Positions 2,566 to 22,769 of a stretch of DNA of 28,002 nucleotides are shown piece by piece. Both the position numbers and the translations under genes were made by a program. Below the pieces are notes generated by a model. It did not search any database, was not told the DNA's origin, and saw nothing but the letters and a program-made list of their open reading frames with translations. The number at the start of each line of letters is the position of its first letter. The stretch's first letter is position 1. Source of the DNA: a virus; IMG/VR virus record IMGVR_UViG_3300046513_000248, positions 1 through 28,002 of that record; one strand, 5' to 3'.

Positions 2566-2807
2566 CAGTCGAGCCTCGGGCGGCGACGGTTACTGCGGCG
2601 CAGCGAGGCACGCAGCTCGGCGATCCGGGTGTCGAGGTAGATCACCTCGGCCGGCTGCGGGTTCATCCAGCGCTGCTCGCGCCTGGCGATCGCGGCGATC
2701 GCGCGCACGCGGGCCGCGTAGCGCACCATCGGGTCGCTCGACAGGGATTCGGCCAGGTTGCGGGCGGCGCGCGCGGCGCGCACGTTGGCGAGGTAGATGA
2801 CGCTCAT
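2565..2807 (-). CDS. Small arginine-rich protein, unknown function
   Basis: An 80-residue, strongly basic protein beginning MSVIYLANVRAARAARNLAES and ending RRSNRRRPRLD. The composition (about one residue in five is Arg) could suit nucleic-acid binding, but no domain is recognised. Its start overlaps the preceding gene's stop by a few bases and its own stop overlaps the next start, the arrangement seen all along this operon. Confidence 0.5.
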   Translation of the reverse strand: MSVIYLANVRAARAARNLAESLSSDPMVRYAARVRAIAAIARREQRWMNPQPAEVIYLDTRIAELRASLRRSNRRRPRLD

Positions 2808-3205
2808 GCCGGCACCCCGGACAGCCTGGCGTAGTGACTGGGCTTGTCGCGCATGTCGTTGCTGCCTTCGCGCTGGCCGCGCGAGGACGGCAGGTAGCGG
2901 TTCGACAGCGGCCGGAACGGCGGACGGGTCGGCGGCGGCACCTTCTCGCCCTTTTCCTTTTCCGAGATCTCGTTCAGGCCGTACTTGTCCAGCAGCGCGT
3001 CACTGGCCTCGATGCGCGGGCCGATCTCGCTGACCATGACCGCGCAGCCGCGCACCACCAGCTCGCGGTACAGGTCGCCGATCTCGGCCAGCGTCAGGCG
3101 CAGCGTGCCGTGCAGCAGGATGCCTTCCTCGGGCGTGATCGCTACGCCCGTCAGCAGCAGGTTGGTGATCTTGCGGCCACACGAGTTCGGGTTCGGCATC
3201 TTCAT
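2804..3205 (-). CDS. Hypothetical early-operon protein
   Basis: The 133-residue product starts MKMPNPNSCGRKITNLLL. The first 75 residues are predicted helical; the tail (residues 85-133) is rich in Pro, Arg and Ser and looks disordered. The start at 3205 is chosen over a longer frame reaching 3373 because AAGGAG lies about 8 bases upstream and the longer extension is low-complexity Pro/Arg sequence shadowing the neighbour. No family is recognised. It overlaps genes on both sides by 4 bases. Confidence 0.55.
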   Translation of the reverse strand: MKMPNPNSCGRKITNLLLTGVAITPEEGILLHGTLRLTLAEIGDLYRELVVRGCAVMVSEIGPRIEASDALLDKYGLNEISEKEKGEKVPPPTRPPFRPLSNRYLPSSRGQREGSNDMRDKPSHYARLSGVPA

Positions 3206-7944: not shown

Positions 7945-7999
7945 TGAGCGCTGTGTTATGTTGCTACTCGTGAATACTTCCCAATGACGGAGATTGGCC

Positions 8000-8626
8000 A
8001 TGTCTACCATCGGTGCACGCATCAAACAGAGACGCGAAGAACTCAAGATGAGCCGCAATGACCTCGCCATAGCCTGTGGCGTGACACCGCAGGCGGTCCA
8101 TGCATGGGAGGAAAAAGGGGCGATACCGGCGTACCATCGGTTAAAGAAAATTGCCGAGGTACTAGAAACAACAGTTGAATGGTTGTCAGCTGGAATTAGT
8201 GTTAATGTACCAACTGGCGCTAATTACACACTGGTCCCTCTACTGAGGACAGACAATGAAGGAGGCGGCGACGTGCAATACCACGACGAGGTCGGAGAAC
8301 TCAAGGACGACCGCAACAGCTTCGCCTATCGCCGCGACTTCCTCGAACAGCTCGGTGTGAAACCCGAGTGGTGCCGGGTGGTCCGCGGCGACACCAGTAT
8401 GATGCTCGGCGACCAGCTCCTGGTCGACCTGCAGCAGCATGAAATCGAGAACGGCCGCGTCTATGTGCTCAAATCCCCGAGCGGTCCGATCGTGCGCCGC
8501 CTGTTCGTGCAGCTCGACCAGAAGGTGCGCGTACTGGCCGATCGCCCCGACATCCCGGAGCAGATCGTGCCTCCCGAGGCGGTCCACGTGCTGGGTAGAG
8601 TGGTGGCGTTCCAGGGCACCCTGTAG
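8000..8626 (+). CDS. CI-like prophage repressor with degenerate S24 protease domain
   Basis: The 208-residue protein has an N-terminal XRE helix-turn-helix (about residues 17-45, SRNDLAIACGVTPQAVHAWE) and a C-terminal LexA/S24-like fold (about 105-208). In the fold, the Ser region reads RGDTSMMLGDQLLVD (129-143) instead of the usual GDSM, and the place of the catalytic Lys reads VRR (165-167). No clear Ala-Gly or Cys-Gly cleavage site is seen in the linker. The likely result is a repressor that dimerises but does not self-cleave. The ATG at 8000 is chosen because GGAG lies 7 bases upstream; a TTG at 7994 is unlikely. The first third is more AT-rich than its neighbours. A terminator follows. 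Confidence 0.85.
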   Translation: MSTIGARIKQRREELKMSRNDLAIACGVTPQAVHAWEEKGAIPAYHRLKKIAEVLETTVEWLSAGISVNVPTGANYTLVPLLRTDNEGGGDVQYHDEVGELKDDRNSFAYRRDFLEQLGVKPEWCRVVRGDTSMMLGDQLLVDLQQHEIENGRVYVLKSPSGPIVRRLFVQLDQKVRVLADRPDIPEQIVPPEAVHVLGRVVAFQGTL

Positions 8627-8793: not shown

Positions 8794-8822
8794 TTGAAAT
8801 CAAACGGACGCTTAAATATTCT
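8794..8822 (+). promoter_or_regulatory. Promoter of the rightward recombination operon
   Basis: TTGAAA (8794-8799) and TATTCT (8817-8822) are separated by 17 bases, matching five and four of six consensus positions. The -10 touches operator 5 and the start region is covered by operator 4, so the repressor would shut it off. It lies about 75 bases upstream of the TTG start at 8898. Confidence 0.6.
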
Positions 8823-8857
8823 TAAAGTTTCCCTTGTAAATTAAAGTTGGACTTTAA
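8822..8857. promoter_or_regulatory. Two repressor operators at the rightward operon
   Basis: TTAAAGTTGGACTTTAA (8841-8857) is a perfect 7-3-7 dyad. A weaker copy, TTAAAGTTTCCCTTGTA (8822-8838), precedes it with centres 19 bases apart, the same spacing as in the switch region. Both share half-sites with the operators at 7889-7944. They overlap the -10 and initial transcribed region of the promoter above. Confidence 0.7.
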
Positions 8858-8897
8858 TACACTGGTTCCTGTTTCCTCTGGATAAACAGGAGCCGCC

Positions 8898-9308
8898 TTG
8901 GATCACACCTTCCCCTACACCCTGCCGCACCTGGAACTCGAGGTCGGTCCCAACGCCGTGCCGGTGCGCCTGCGCACCTCGGCCCAGCTGCAGGTCGAGT
9001 TCACCCATGATCCGGGCTATCCCGCGATCCCGACGCTGCCCAACGGCGATCCGGGCGAGCCGGGCCTGCCGGAATACTTCGACTTCAAGCGCATCCTCTC
9101 GCCGCACCCGCTGGTGCTGACCGCACCGAGCAACCGCGGCCGTTTCCTGATCGAGGCCGGCGCCGACATCTTCGAGTACCTGTCGGAAGACGCCATCGCC
9201 GACATCGAGCACGCGATGCTGGCGCGCCTGCGCGAGCAGCAGGACGACGACCTGGTCGACCTGATGATCCCGCGCCTGGCCGCGCTCTCGCTGGAGGACC
9301 GCCCATGA
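8898..9308 (+). CDS. First gene of the rightward operon, unknown function
   Basis: A 136-residue product starting from TTG at 8898, with CAGGAG 5 bases upstream; no ATG is available nearby in frame. The sequence begins MDHTFPYTLPHLELEVGPNAVPVRL, has an ordinary globular look and an acidic helical C-terminus (DAIADIEHAMLARLREQQDDDL). I do not recognise it. It is the first gene under the operator-controlled promoter and overlaps the next gene by 4 bases, so it probably belongs to the recombination module. Confidence 0.65.
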   Translation: MDHTFPYTLPHLELEVGPNAVPVRLRTSAQLQVEFTHDPGYPAIPTLPNGDPGEPGLPEYFDFKRILSPHPLVLTAPSNRGRFLIEAGADIFEYLSEDAIADIEHAMLARLREQQDDDLVDLMIPRLAALSLEDRP

Positions 9309-9850
9309 GCGCGCCGCAGGTAAAAACCCACTGGAAGCAGCTGATCGACCCGCGCTTCGTGGGCGTGTACGCGCTGCCCAATGGCGAAGACATGACGGTC
9401 ACGATCAAGTACGTCCAGAAAGAGACCATCACCATGATGGGCGGGAAGAAGGAAGACCATTCGCTGGCCTACCTGGTCGAAACGAAACCCTTGATCCTGA
9501 ACTCGACCAACAGCAAGACGATCGAGAAGCTGTACGGCCCCTACATCGAGGACTGGGCCGGCCGCCGGATCACCCTGTACGCCAGCACGACGAAACTCGG
9601 CGGCGACATGGTCGAGTGCCTGCGCATCCGCGCCAAGATCCCGCAGGACGCGAAAGAGGCGCTGACCGATGCGCGCATGGACAAGGCCCTGGCCGCGGTG
9701 AAGAAGGGCGATTTCGCGGCCGACACGCTGCGCGTGAAATACGCGCTGACCGACGCCCAGGCCGAACGCCTGGCGCAGGTCGAGGCGGAACTGGCGTCCG
9801 GCGTGGAAGCGGCCCCGAACGACCCGGGCGCCGAACCGGAGGCCGCGTGA
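9305..9850 (+). CDS. Conserved phage protein next to the recombination exonuclease
   Basis: The 181-residue protein has the pattern THWKQLIDPRFVGVYALP near the N-terminus, followed by DMTVTIKYV, and later LYGPYIEDWAGRRITLYAS and VECLRIRAK. Phages with PD-(D/E)XK exonucleases often carry this protein directly upstream of the exonuclease, and it is usually annotated as hypothetical. That partnership suggests a role in recombination, perhaps DNA binding or strand annealing, but this is inference. The C-terminal 60 residues are Ala/Glu-rich and probably flexible. GGAGG lies 7 bases before the ATG. The stop overlaps the exonuclease GTG start. Confidence 0.7.
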   Translation: MSAPQVKTHWKQLIDPRFVGVYALPNGEDMTVTIKYVQKETITMMGGKKEDHSLAYLVETKPLILNSTNSKTIEKLYGPYIEDWAGRRITLYASTTKLGGDMVECLRIRAKIPQDAKEALTDARMDKALAAVKKGDFAADTLRVKYALTDAQAERLAQVEAELASGVEAAPNDPGAEPEAA

Positions 9851-10584
9851 TCCCCGACTTCCGCATCCGCTGCTCGGCCCTGTCCACGATCATGACGGAC
9901 CCGAAGGCGATCGACCCGGCCCTGCTCACCACCCCCGAGCTGGCCGCGATCGCGGCGAAAAAGGTCAAGACCGACGAGGACAAGGCGATCCTCGCGCCGC
10001 TGTACGACATGACCCTGTCCAGCGGCGCCAAGACGGTCCTGAACGACATGGCCAAGGAGTACCTGTACGGCTACAACAACGTGGTGTCCAGCAAGTACAC
10101 CCAGAAGGGCATCATCGTCGAGGACCAGTCGATCGCGCTGTACAACGAACTGTTCTTCACCAGCCACAAGAAGAACACGGTCCGCACCGTCAACGCGTGG
10201 CTGACCGGCGAACCCGACATCGACACCGGCGAGGAGATCATCGACATCAAGTCGTCGTGGTCGATGGCCACCTTCCCCGAGGTGCCCGAGGACGGCCACA
10301 AGCCTGAATACGAATGGCAGGTGCGCGGCTACATGATGCTGCGCAACCGCGAGCGCGCCAAGGTCGCCTACTGCCTGGTCGACACGCCCGAGGAACTGAT
10401 CGGCTACGAGAACCCCGAGCTGCACCAGATGGACCGGCTGCCGCTGGAAATGCGCGTCACGATCGTCGAGTACCAGCGCGACCCGCTGCTGGAACAGAAG
10501 ATCATCCGCAAGGTCGAGGCCTCGCGCAGCTACGTGGCCGGCCGCATCGAGCGCGTCGAGATCGCCCACCGCTACCACGCCTGA
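9847..10584 (+). CDS. YqaJ-like PD-(D/E)XK phage exonuclease
   Basis: The 245-residue protein starts at GTG 9847, overlapping the previous stop in a GTGA junction; this adds the family's typical N-terminus FRIRCSALSTIMTDPKA. The nuclease core reads LTGEPDIDTGEEIIDIKSSWS (about residues 118-138), giving the D...(D/E)xK motif as D122 and DIK, followed by a WQVRGYMML helix with the conserved Gln. Such enzymes degrade one strand from double-strand ends to start single-strand annealing recombination, like lambda Exo. A longer frame opening at 9616 only shadows the upstream gene. Assignment is strong by motif order. Confidence 0.85.
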   Translation: MIPDFRIRCSALSTIMTDPKAIDPALLTTPELAAIAAKKVKTDEDKAILAPLYDMTLSSGAKTVLNDMAKEYLYGYNNVVSSKYTQKGIIVEDQSIALYNELFFTSHKKNTVRTVNAWLTGEPDIDTGEEIIDIKSSWSMATFPEVPEDGHKPEYEWQVRGYMMLRNRERAKVAYCLVDTPEELIGYENPELHQMDRLPLEMRVTIVEYQRDPLLEQKIIRKVEASRSYVAGRIERVEIAHRYHA

Positions 10585-10588
10585 ACCC

Positions 10589-10921
10589 ATGGACCTGACC
10601 CTGACCGTCTCCAACGCCGACCAGGCCCGCCAGGCCATCGACATCCTGCAGGCTTTCATGCGCCTGCAGGAACCGGCGCCGCTACGGACGCCGGCGCCCA
10701 GCGAAACGCCGATCGAAGCGCTCGACCTTAGCGTACGCGCCTGCAACTGCCTGCGCGCCGAAGGCATCAAGACCGTCGAGCAGCTGCTGTACTGGAGCCA
10801 CAAGGAACTGAGCCGCGTGCCCAACCTGGGCCGGCGCACGCTGGACGAGATCACCGCCGAACTGGCCCAGCGCGGCATGAAGCTGGGCACGAAGCACCGC
10901 CGCACCTTTACCCAACCCTGA
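10589..10921 (+). CDS. Stand-alone RNA polymerase alpha C-terminal domain homologue
   Basis: The 110-residue protein is an N-terminal helix plus one alpha-CTD (about residues 41-100). Against E. coli alpha the DNA-contact residues are largely kept: R265 is R50, N268 is N53, C269 is C54, N294 is N79, G296 is G81 and E302 is E87; K298 and S299 become Arg and Thr. The D259/E261 determinant that touches sigma is altered (Ala and Asp). It lacks the N-terminal assembly domain, so it cannot join core polymerase as alpha does. It could bind UP-element DNA or activators and compete with, or mimic, host alpha. It sits between the exonuclease and SSB genes. Confidence 0.8.
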
Positions 10922-10940: not shown

Positions 10941-11378
10941 ATGGCATCTGTCAACAAAGTCATCATCGTCGGCAACCTCGGCCGCGACCCGGAAATCCGC
11001 TACATGCCCAGCGGCGATGCGATCGCCAACGTTGCGGTGGCCACCTCGTACAAGTCGAAGGACAAGGCCACCGGCGAAGCCAAGGAGCTGACGGAATGGC
11101 ACCGCATCTCCTTCTTCGGCAAGCTGGCCGAGATCGTCGGCCAGTACCTCAAAAAGGGTTCGAGCGTGTACGTCGAGGGTCGCCTGCAGACCCGCAAGTA
11201 CACGGACAAGGACGGTGTCGAGAAGTACGCCACCGACATCATCGCCGAAAACATGCAGATGCTGGGCGGCCGCAGCGACGGCGCCGGTGCGGGCGGTGGC
11301 GGCTACCAGGCCCCGCCGGCGCGCCCGGCCGCGCGCCCGGCCCAGCCGGACCTGGAATCGTCGGACGTGCCGTTCTGA
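10941..11378 (+). CDS. ssb: Single-stranded DNA-binding protein
   Basis: The 145-residue protein is a standard bacterial SSB: an OB fold from residue 1 to about 110 ([20 protein letters not shown] at the start, [13 protein letters not shown] and [12 protein letters not shown] inside), a Gly/Pro/Ala linker and an acidic tip ending SSDVPF. The tip normally recruits replication and repair enzymes; here it is DVPF rather than DIPF, with fewer acidic residues. AAAGGA precedes the ATG by 8-10 bases. A phage copy next to exonuclease and NinB-type genes fits recombination-dependent replication. Function is secure. Confidence 0.95.
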
Positions 11379-15547: not shown

Positions 15548-16339
15548 ATGAAAACTATCGCCGTGGCTACCCACAAGGGCGGGGTCGGCAAGACCACGAC
15601 CAGCCTGAACCTGTCCGATGCACTGGCACGCGCCGGCCTGTCGGTGCTGCTGGTCGACCTCGACCCGCAGTTCAACGCCACCCGCATTGCCTATTCCTAT
15701 GAGCGCCCGGCATCCGTGCCGGTCGAGCGCGTGCTGGCGGGCGAGGCGACGATGGCCGAAGCCATCATCACCGAGTGCCGGATCGACGGCGTGCACATGC
15801 TTGGCTCGACACTCAAGCTGAGCAACCTGGAGCGCACCCTGCAGCTGAACCCGTTCACCTCGACGCGCCTGCTGTCGGACAAGCTCAAGCATGTGGCCGG
15901 CACCTACGACGTGGTCGTGATCGACTGCCCGCCGTCGCTGGGCAGCCTGACCGCGAATGCGCTGGCCTCCGCCGACCTGGTGATCGTGCCGATCGACGCC
16001 GGCTCCAAACTGTCGCTGACCGGCAGCGACGACATGATCGACTTCATCGAGCAGGCCAAGAACGTCAACCCGCGCCCGTTGCAGTACGCGGCCCTGCTCA
16101 ACATGTACGACGGCCGCACCACGGTCTGCCGCCTGATCGCCGGCAGCGCGCACCAGTATTTCAAGGACATCTTCTCCATCCACATCCCGGACAGCACCGC
16201 CGTCCAGCAGGCGGAAACGGTCGGCAAGACCATCCTCAAGTTCAACGTGCAGCACCAGGTCTCGCGCGCGATGGTCGAGCTGGCGCGCGAAGTGATGGAC
16301 AAACTCGGCATTGACGCGCCCGTCACGGAAACCGCATGA
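15548..16339 (+). CDS. parA: ParA partition ATPase
   Basis: The 263-residue protein starts MKTIAVATHKGGVGKTTTSL, with the deviant Walker A box KGGVGKTT at 10-17. Other ParA motifs are visible: VLLVDLDPQ (38-46, switch I/A') and VVVIDCPPSLG (122-132, Walker B). It lacks an N-terminal helix-turn-helix, so it is the short type (Soj/type Ib-like), which does not itself bind a specific operator. ParA moves plasmid copies over the nucleoid by ATP-driven cycling with ParB. The gene overlaps parB by 4 bases. Assignment is certain. Confidence 0.95.
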   Translation: MKTIAVATHKGGVGKTTTSLNLSDALARAGLSVLLVDLDPQFNATRIAYSYERPASVPVERVLAGEATMAEAIITECRIDGVHMLGSTLKLSNLERTLQLNPFTSTRLLSDKLKHVAGTYDVVVIDCPPSLGSLTANALASADLVIVPIDAGSKLSLTGSDDMIDFIEQAKNVNPRPLQYAALLNMYDGRTTVCRLIAGSAHQYFKDIFSIHIPDSTAVQQAETVGKTILKFNVQHQVSRAMVELAREVMDKLGIDAPVTETA

Positions 16340-17250
16340 GCAGCAAGCTGAACAAGGAACTGGAAGCCGCGCTGGTGAACCGCCCGCGCCCGAACCTCAA
16401 GAATGACGTGGCTTCCACCATCATCGGGCTGGCCGGCCGCGAGTCGAGCGCGCCGGTCATGCTGCCGCTGTCCCAGCTGGTGCGCTCGCGCTTCCAGTCG
16501 CGCGGCAAGCGCGACGAGGAATACATGGAGAACCTGGTCGAGAGCATCCGCCAGGAGGGCCTGCTCGACCCGGTCATCGTCCGGCCCCTGCCGGTCGAGC
16601 AGGCCGAGCAGAGTGGACATACTATGTCCACTCTGCCGCTGTACGAACTGGTCGCGGGCCACCACCGCGTCGACGCTTTCAAGATCCTGGGCCGGAACGA
16701 GATCCCGGCGACCGTTCGGGTCCTGACCGACGCCGAGGCAGCCCGCGCGCTGACCAGCGAGAACACGACGCGCAAGGGCCTGGGCGACTGGGAGCTGTAC
16801 AAGCACATGCAGATGCTCTACGCGGTCGGCGCCGTGACCAGCCAGCGCACCGCGGCACGCGTGCTGAACGTCTCGCGTGCCGTCGTCCAGGCGCTGGAGG
16901 CCTTCGCGCTGCTGCCCCAGAGCGTTCACGAGCTGCTCGACGATCATCCCGGCCTGGTCGGCTACAACCTGGCCGATGACCTGCGCCCCTACTGTGCGGA
17001 GCACGCGCTGCTGGTGTTCGACGCCCTGTGCCTGCTGGCCAAGAAAAAGCTGACGCAGGCGGCCGTGCCGCGCTGGATCGAGGACAAGGCGACCCCCCAG
17101 GCCAGGAAGCCGAGGAAGGAGCTGGAGCTGGGCAACGGCGTGCGCCTGATCGTCAACGGCGCCGGCGCGCGCGTGTCCGGCAAGCTCGACTACGACCGCC
17201 TGCACAGGCTGATCGAGGCGAACCTGCCCGCGCTGCTGCTGGCCGACTGA
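16336..17250 (+). CDS. parB: ParB centromere-binding protein carrying a parS-like site in its own coding sequence
   Basis: The 304-residue protein has a ParB/Srx-type N-terminal domain with LVESIRQEGLLDPVIVRPLP (67-86) and VAGHHR (106-111, the CTP-binding GxxR-type motif), followed by a helix-turn-helix (about 169-190, SQRTAARVLNVSRAVVQ) and a C-terminal dimerisation region. Between PVIVRPLP and YELVAGHHR is an extra loop, VEQAEQSGHTMSTLP (87-101). The DNA coding for this loop holds a 27-bp palindrome (16609-16635), the third parS-like copy. It overlaps parA by 4 bases (ATGA). Family certain; the loop is the odd feature. Confidence 0.95.
   Translation: MSSKLNKELEAALVNRPRPNLKNDVASTIIGLAGRESSAPVMLPLSQLVRSRFQSRGKRDEEYMENLVESIRQEGLLDPVIVRPLPVEQAEQSGHTMSTLPLYELVAGHHRVDAFKILGRNEIPATVRVLTDAEAARALTSENTTRKGLGDWELYKHMQMLYAVGAVTSQRTAARVLNVSRAVVQALEAFALLPQSVHELLDDHPGLVGYNLADDLRPYCAEHALLVFDALCLLAKKKLTQAAVPRWIEDKATPQARKPRKELELGNGVRLIVNGAGARVSGKLDYDRLHRLIEANLPALLLAD
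16609..16635. repeat. parS-like palindrome, copy 3, inside parB
   Basis: A perfect palindrome with 13-bp arms around a central C. The inner 19 bp, GTGGACATACTATGTCCAC (16613-16631), equal the core of copies 1 and 2 except for the centre. It encodes residues 92-100 of ParB and falls between conserved blocks, so it is tolerated as a loop. Confidence 0.75.
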
Positions 17251-21749: not shown

Positions 21750-22769
21750 GTGGAAGATCCGCACTACAAACGACAACTCACCCTTTTCAAGAACTCGGCC
21801 AAAGAGGAAATGAAGAAGGTGGCGCCGACCAAGATGTCAGTCTGGCCGAACAAGTACCGGGCCGTCGCCAACGAGATCGCCCGTTGCTCACTGTTTTCAT
21901 GCCGCAATCCGAAGACGCCGCGGCACCATTACACCAACGAGCGCCTGTTCACGCTCGGCAAATCGGTCATGACCTACAGCGGCGAGGAACTGCGCAGCAA
22001 TGACCAGGACATCTGGCTGGCCCTCGCGCACGCGGTGCGCGACTACCCGGGCGAGAACATCGTCCTGCACATCACCAGTTCGGAGATCTGCCGGCTGGTG
22101 GGCTGGCGCATCGGCCAGGACTACTACACCGAGATCTACAAGTCGATCCAGCGGATGAAGGCGACCGCGCTGACGGTATTCTCGCCGCGCCTCAAGAAAG
22201 CCAGGGCCTACGAGCAGGCACGGCGCACCGGCGCGTCCGACGAGGAACTGGCCAGCCTGTACGCGGCCATGATGCGCACCGACAGCGACGAGGCGGGCGA
22301 GGACGAGGCGGTGTCGGGGATCATGATGTCGATGATTGGCAGCAGGGTCCTGTTCGATGCCGAAGGCGTCGAGGTGATCGACGACATCCCGCAGGGCAAC
22401 CTGAAATGGACGATCCCGCTCGACGCCGAGATCGTGGCCCTGTTCGCCTGGTCGTACCTGACGCTGGTCCCATACGAGCGGCGGCGCAAGCTGCCGCGTG
22501 GCGCGGCGCGCAACCTGCAGGCCTACTTCATGAGCCACCAGCAGCCGTTTCCGGTCAAGATGTCGTCGCTGGCCAAGATGCTGAACCTGGACGGCGAGCT
22601 GCGCGAGAACAAGCGCACCATCGAGAGCGCCCTCAACCAGCTGCAGAAGGAGGGCGTGCTCGAAAGCGTCAAGATCGACAAGGGCAGGGGTGACGTGCTG
22701 GTCCACGTGGTCCGCGCGCCCGAACCGCCCGACGACGAGGGCGAAACCACTACAGCCAGCCCACAATGA
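21750..22769 (+). CDS. trfA: TrfA-family plasmid replication initiator
   Basis: The 339-residue protein starts from GTG at 21750 with CAGGAAG upstream; an ATG at 21810 would give a shorter form, as in RK2 where trfA has two starts. The TrfA pattern is clear: MSVWPNKYRAVANEIARCSL (from about residue 28), FSCRNPKTPRHHYTNERLFT, then SVMTYSGEELRSNDQDIW. Two winged-helix domains are expected, with the second near FPVKMSSLAKMLNLDGELRE. The protein would bind the iterons that begin inside its own last codons (22750) and open the origin with DnaA. Assignment is strong. Confidence 0.9.
   Translation: MEDPHYKRQLTLFKNSAKEEMKKVAPTKMSVWPNKYRAVANEIARCSLFSCRNPKTPRHHYTNERLFTLGKSVMTYSGEELRSNDQDIWLALAHAVRDYPGENIVLHITSSEICRLVGWRIGQDYYTEIYKSIQRMKATALTVFSPRLKKARAYEQARRTGASDEELASLYAAMMRTDSDEAGEDEAVSGIMMSMIGSRVLFDAEGVEVIDDIPQGNLKWTIPLDAEIVALFAWSYLTLVPYERRRKLPRGAARNLQAYFMSHQQPFPVKMSSLAKMLNLDGELRENKRTIESALNQLQKEGVLESVKIDKGRGDVLVHVVRAPEPPDDEGETTTASPQ

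Follow-up and report, generated by a model that had tools for sequence, protein, structure and literature searches.

A free-standing homologue of the RNA polymerase alpha C-terminal domain in a phage exonuclease-SSB operon and its possible action in trans

What does an RNA polymerase alpha C-terminal domain (alpha-CTD) do on DNA when no polymerase is attached to it? A free alpha-CTD made by a phage would be a ready tool for this question. The known phage routes disable alpha-CTD by modifying or cutting it, and an own, free alpha-CTD would be simpler. In this study, we analysed a virus record of 28,002 bases with 65.5% GC (the window, meaning the whole stretch), in which one ORF encodes a protein of 110 residues followed by a stop codon (Table 1). 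Residues 39-93 match the Pfam model PF03118 (RNA_pol_A_CTD) with an E-value of 1.5e-19 and 69.9 bits, the cut-off being 23.8 bits, and phmmer matched the protein to about 50 distinct solved RNA polymerase (RNAP) alpha sequences in PDB, the best at 4e-12. An AlphaFold2 model built from six sequences (mean pLDDT 73.7; about 84 in the CTD blocks) was placed by Foldseek at 0.9 A on 1lb2_E, the E. coli alpha-CTD in complex with CAP and DNA (61 columns). A weak second match to PF14520 (HHH_5) was also present. Only the CTD is present: the alpha-NTD, the assembly and dimerisation domain, is absent, the NCBIfam RpoA models match by their C-terminal part only and far under cut-off, and the Pfam search gave no sigma match within the protein. 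These results bear out the initial annotation, which had described a free-standing alpha-CTD homologue without assembly domain. A chance ORF or contaminating host rpoA was ruled out by the gene's own operon, the six alleles and the lack of the NTD.

Residues 1-38, overlooked in that annotation, are not alpha-CTD. The allele alignment revealed a short conserved segment in residues 1-27 (MxLTLTVSNxDQAxQAxxIL), with a helix at residues 10-26 in the model, for which neither Pfam nor PHROGs returned a match and the fetched loci gave matches at chance level only. It may serve for oligomerisation or partner docking, and because it is conserved, the protein may be tethered to another phage protein, as originally suggested. 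The linker that follows (residues 28-39) varies in length among alleles and has pLDDT below 50 at residues 28-36. Net charge is +2 in the window protein and reaches -4 in other alleles.

Loci were gathered by exonuclease-led and phrog_21613-led scans of viral contigs together with one alpha-CTD-led alignment scan; no relative came from scanning viral contigs with the single protein or genome contigs with the alignment. Six distinct alleles were obtained (the window, L002/L003 with the same allele, L004, L005, L007 and L014), the reading frame being preserved in the five further alleles at the same operon slot. The gene stands alone and unfused between the exonuclease and SSB genes in 6/6 alleles, so that the constant fusion to another phage protein that the initial annotation had considered is not seen in this family. 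The gap between exonuclease and SSB measures 332-389 bases with the gene versus at most 31 bases in nearly all relatives without it, and since most gene-less relatives join exonuclease straight to SSB, the gene is an accessory cassette. In another relative (L052, 5105-5620) an HNH-like ORF fills the slot, which therefore accepts different genes. One IMG/VR contig of 118 kb (3300046660_000385, covering L005 and L073) contains a pair of related exonuclease-SSB modules, of which only one has the alpha-CTD gene. A distant relative without the gene lies within an Achromobacter genome. A chromosomal family was considered and rejected: a search of 399 Burkholderiales genomes gave a single match per matching genome, the places listed were rpoA-sized frames, and among the matches listed the free-standing family was not seen in the chromosomes. 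A match in a Clostridioides plasmid and several in 'phage' records were likewise discarded, being full-length rpoA in stretches of chromosomal type where checked. A large protein of one relative (L117, 16917-19856) matches DarB-like antirestriction families.

Table 1. Positions of the alpha-CTD gene, its parts and its neighbours in the window
Feature	Position	Strand	Basis or remark
Free-standing alpha-CTD protein, 110 aa	10589..10921	+	ORF, PF03118, fold match, five further alleles
Conserved N-terminal segment, residues 1-27	10589..10669	+	Alignment, model
Linker, residues 28-39	10670..10705	+	Low pLDDT, alignment
Alpha-CTD fold, residues 40-100, with R50, N53, N79, G81, E87	10706..10888	+	Pfam, Foldseek, alignment
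Phage exonuclease (phrog_5715, E 5.3e-53), GTG start	9886..10584	+	Upstream neighbour in all carriers
SSB (PF00436, E 9.8e-39)	10941..11378	+	Downstream neighbour in all carriers
phrog_21613 protein, function unassigned, same operon, conserved	9305..9850	+	PHROGs match, relatives
CI-like repressor (HTH + S24 peptidase)	7994..8626	+	Pfam, PHROGs
Most AT-rich stretch of the window	8812..8860	+	Likely early promoter, with a UP-like sequence and an inverted repeat; consensus matches only

An HTH protein gene also lies downstream of the alpha-CTD gene. The most AT-rich stretch, also delimited as 8812-8851, comes after the CI-like repressor gene, and because this repressor and the promoter-like stretch precede the operon, expression of the alpha-CTD gene is putatively early and repressor-controlled. 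A dedicated UP-like target tied to the gene was rejected, as the AT-rich element occurs equally in relatives without it. Genes for ParA, ParB and a TrfA-like replication initiator were observed at 15548-17250 and 21750-22769 of the window. TrfA was found in 9/9 records searched, and the 8 relatives searched gave no match to a tyrosine integrase; by its gene content the element looks like a phage-plasmid.

Over 5 kb, the window shares 91.5% identity with L003, while their alpha-CTD proteins are only about 44% identical; identity over the alpha-CTD ORF falls to 0.51-0.59 with edges near the gene ends. The gene is the most divergent of its neighbourhood, a sharp-edged divergent cassette amid near-identical flanks. 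Its dN/dS ratios were 0.85-1.36 over 15 allele pairs (about 1 in all), compared with 0.16-0.47 for SSB and 0.26-0.85 for the exonuclease in the same phages and 0.10-0.79 for phrog_21613 in the five phages holding it; absolute values are inflated, as third positions are about 90% GC, and only the contrast with neighbours counts. Gene exchange or swapping could also contribute to the raised ratios.

This divergence is unevenly spread over the surface. The determinant positions are those generally known for E. coli alpha, and the equivalents in the window protein by alignment are R265=R50, N268=N53, C269=C54, N294=N79, G296=G81, K298=R83, S299=T84, E302=E87, D259=A44 and E261=D46. R265, N268, N294 and G296 are unchanged across the six alleles, position 302 is E or D (D in one allele) and position 299 is T or S, so that with these substitutions the 265-determinant set (R265, N268, N294, G296, S299, E302) is present in all six; the five DNA-contact residues named initially (R265, N268, N294, G296 and E302) are indeed kept. 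The K298 equivalent changes (R, H, R, N, H, G). The alteration of D259, also named initially, holds for the window protein, where it is Ala, but is no family property because D is kept in two of the six alleles, with A, E, T and F once each. Ten of the 11 positions for sigma or activator contact vary among the alleles. The 261 and 287 determinants are missing, being variable and unlike Burkholderiales RpoA, and E288 alone is kept in all; the positions that face sigma (257-261) and activators (285-290) are unlike those of Burkholderiales RpoA and change from allele to allele. In permutations, the six DNA-contact positions were less variable than random (p 0.01; p 0.002 among polar positions; p 0.04 for a longer list of eight), and the protein-contact positions were more variable (p 0.04), although this significance was lost among polar ones (0.13). 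The contrast between frozen DNA-contact and changing protein-contact positions is statistically modest. Taken from the residues, the DNA-binding surface looks kept and the contacts to host proteins do not. The original proposal of a mimic that would block UP elements and so lower rRNA or activated transcription is therefore supported in part, by its DNA-contact residues but not by its host-protein contacts. Its further suggestion that the protein occupies host activators is weakened: since the sigma- and activator-facing positions differ and vary, the protein is unlikely to engage host activators by the usual surface.

Alpha-CTD is also found elsewhere in phages. Among 28 other phage alpha-CTD sequences, some of them near-duplicates, R265 is present in 28/28 and N268 in 26/28. 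Judged from their sequences, alpha-CTD is a mobile, reused phage module that occurs free-standing, joined to sigma region 4 or joined to a MazG-like part, so that in other phage lineages it can be found fused to another phage protein. Short or unfused-looking proteins include L021, L097, Microbacterium phage Atraxi gp24 and one of Bacillus phage Goe8. Proteins in which a sigma region 4-like part precedes alpha-CTD were observed in L092, L098, L100, L107, L108, L110-L112 and L114-L116, the sigma part being matched by PHROGs for the L020/L092 protein only and read by eye in the others; this fusion is apparently a recurrent design in clostridial-type phages. In Ruegeria phage vB_RpoS-V16 (L026, 2929-3795) an alpha-CTD-like domain is fused with a MazG-like pyrophosphatase. 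L096 has separate ORFs, at 110-340 and 2791-3192, for sigma region 4 and for alpha-CTD; the CTD of the latter protein is very like gammaproteobacterial RpoA, and its N-terminal part is similar to the N-terminal parts of both ORFs before it. PHROGs version 4 gave no match to the alpha-CTD proteins in the members tried, fusion partners excepted. Phage proteins with the name 'RNA polymerase, alpha subunit, C-terminal' occur in a viral structure library, so that phage alpha-CTD proteins are a kind already known by name; we found no functional study of a free-standing one in the literature.

In the explanation that we favour, to which we give a probability of roughly 0.4, the protein would be a trans-acting, A-tract-binding transcription modulator or competitor from an early lytic operon. 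The phage-owned alpha-CTD, unlinked to the polymerase body, would be made early after induction, would pair or dock through its N-terminal segment, and would bind AT-rich minor-groove sites (UP elements and similar) by its R265-type surface. There it may displace or replace the host alpha-CTD, putatively lowering UP-element-dependent transcription of the host or of early phage genes. The fast change of its other surfaces might come from contact with a partner that itself varies (host sigma, an activator or a defence protein), or from the need to escape such a partner. The retained DNA grip and the missing polymerase are most simply read as trans action on AT-rich minor-groove DNA, and we rank a competitor or modulator first because alpha-CTD-specific residues are frozen, phages attack exactly this contact (T4 Alt and ModA, LUZ19 Rac), and other phages fuse alpha-CTD with sigma region 4, a transcription setting. 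Against a competitor, the K298 equivalent varies, the net charge is not strongly positive, and the neighbours are recombination rather than transcription genes. Isolated alpha-CTD binds DNA weakly, thus competition needs a high dose or oligomerisation, and the equal presence of the AT-rich promoter element in gene-less relatives gives no hint of a phage target dedicated to the protein. It is doubtful that the family consists of soluble competitors of host alpha-CTD, with the DNA grip frozen and the protein-facing surfaces under diversifying pressure. If it did, phages would have a third way, in addition to ADP-ribosylation and cleavage, of taking alpha-CTD control from the host.

The recombination neighbours point to an alternative that we consider unlikely, in which an alpha-CTD of helix-hairpin-helix type would bind duplex DNA and aid the exonuclease or SSB, or protect ends, with no role in transcription. 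The alpha-CTD fold is related to helix-hairpin-helix DNA-binding domains, and the position between exonuclease and SSB in every allele and the weak HHH_5 match are in line with such an accessory. However, the gene is dispensable, most relatives running the exonuclease directly into SSB, the invariant R265 and N268 are specific to alpha-CTD and not general features of helix-hairpin-helix domains, and alpha-CTD is joined to sigma region 4 in other phages. Those fusions, L096 with its separate ORFs, the conserved N-terminal segment and the AT-rich element that precedes the putative early promoter would instead suit a positive factor, docking through the N-terminal segment on a phage activator or RNAP and supplying an extra DNA grip at phage promoters. 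This seems quite improbable, as the AT-rich element is present equally without the gene, and no confident sigma region 4 protein was found in the window or its relatives, which gave below-cut-off matches only. Least credible is a counter-defence decoy that would bait an enzyme or defence system recognising alpha-CTD (e.g. that of a competing phage) and so shield the real RNAP: the presence or absence and swapping at one slot, the fast-changing surfaces and the phages known to modify or cut alpha-CTD agree with it, but host-like surfaces would be expected and are not kept.

Several known systems come close to the window protein. With the C-terminal domain of bacterial RpoA (PF03118; 1lb2, 3n97) it shares the fold, about 40% domain identity and the DNA-contact residues, while it lacks the alpha-NTD, is encoded outside any ribosomal-protein operon, and belongs to a family whose sigma- and activator-facing residues differ and vary by allele. 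Named phage proteins (of uncultured Caudovirales, 111-135 aa; Rhodococcus phage Finch; Mycobacterium phage Mithril) also carry alpha-CTD with a similar predicted fold, at 24-39% identity to the window protein in most structural matches; they were compared by fold and identity only. In the 28 other phage alpha-CTD sequences, protein-contact positions would be fairly judged against the RpoA of their own hosts. In clostridial-type phages (e.g. L098, L107, L112), the sigma region 4 - alpha-CTD fusions keep R265, N268 and G296 as the window protein does, but carry a sigma region 4 that the latter does not have. A paper on T4 Alt and ModA, which ADP-ribosylate Arg265 of host alpha, also states the importance of R265 (PMC2988021). 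Alt modification of this residue leaves E. coli growth unimpaired (PMC2988021), therefore losing the contact need not equal strong host shut-off. LUZ19 Rac causes a cut in the alpha linker that frees alpha-CTD (PMC7552054). The outcome that the window protein is proposed to share with these systems would be the loss of normal alpha-CTD and UP-element function (PMC2988021, PMC7552054); however, Alt, ModA and Rac target the host subunit, whereas the window protein is a homologue of that target.
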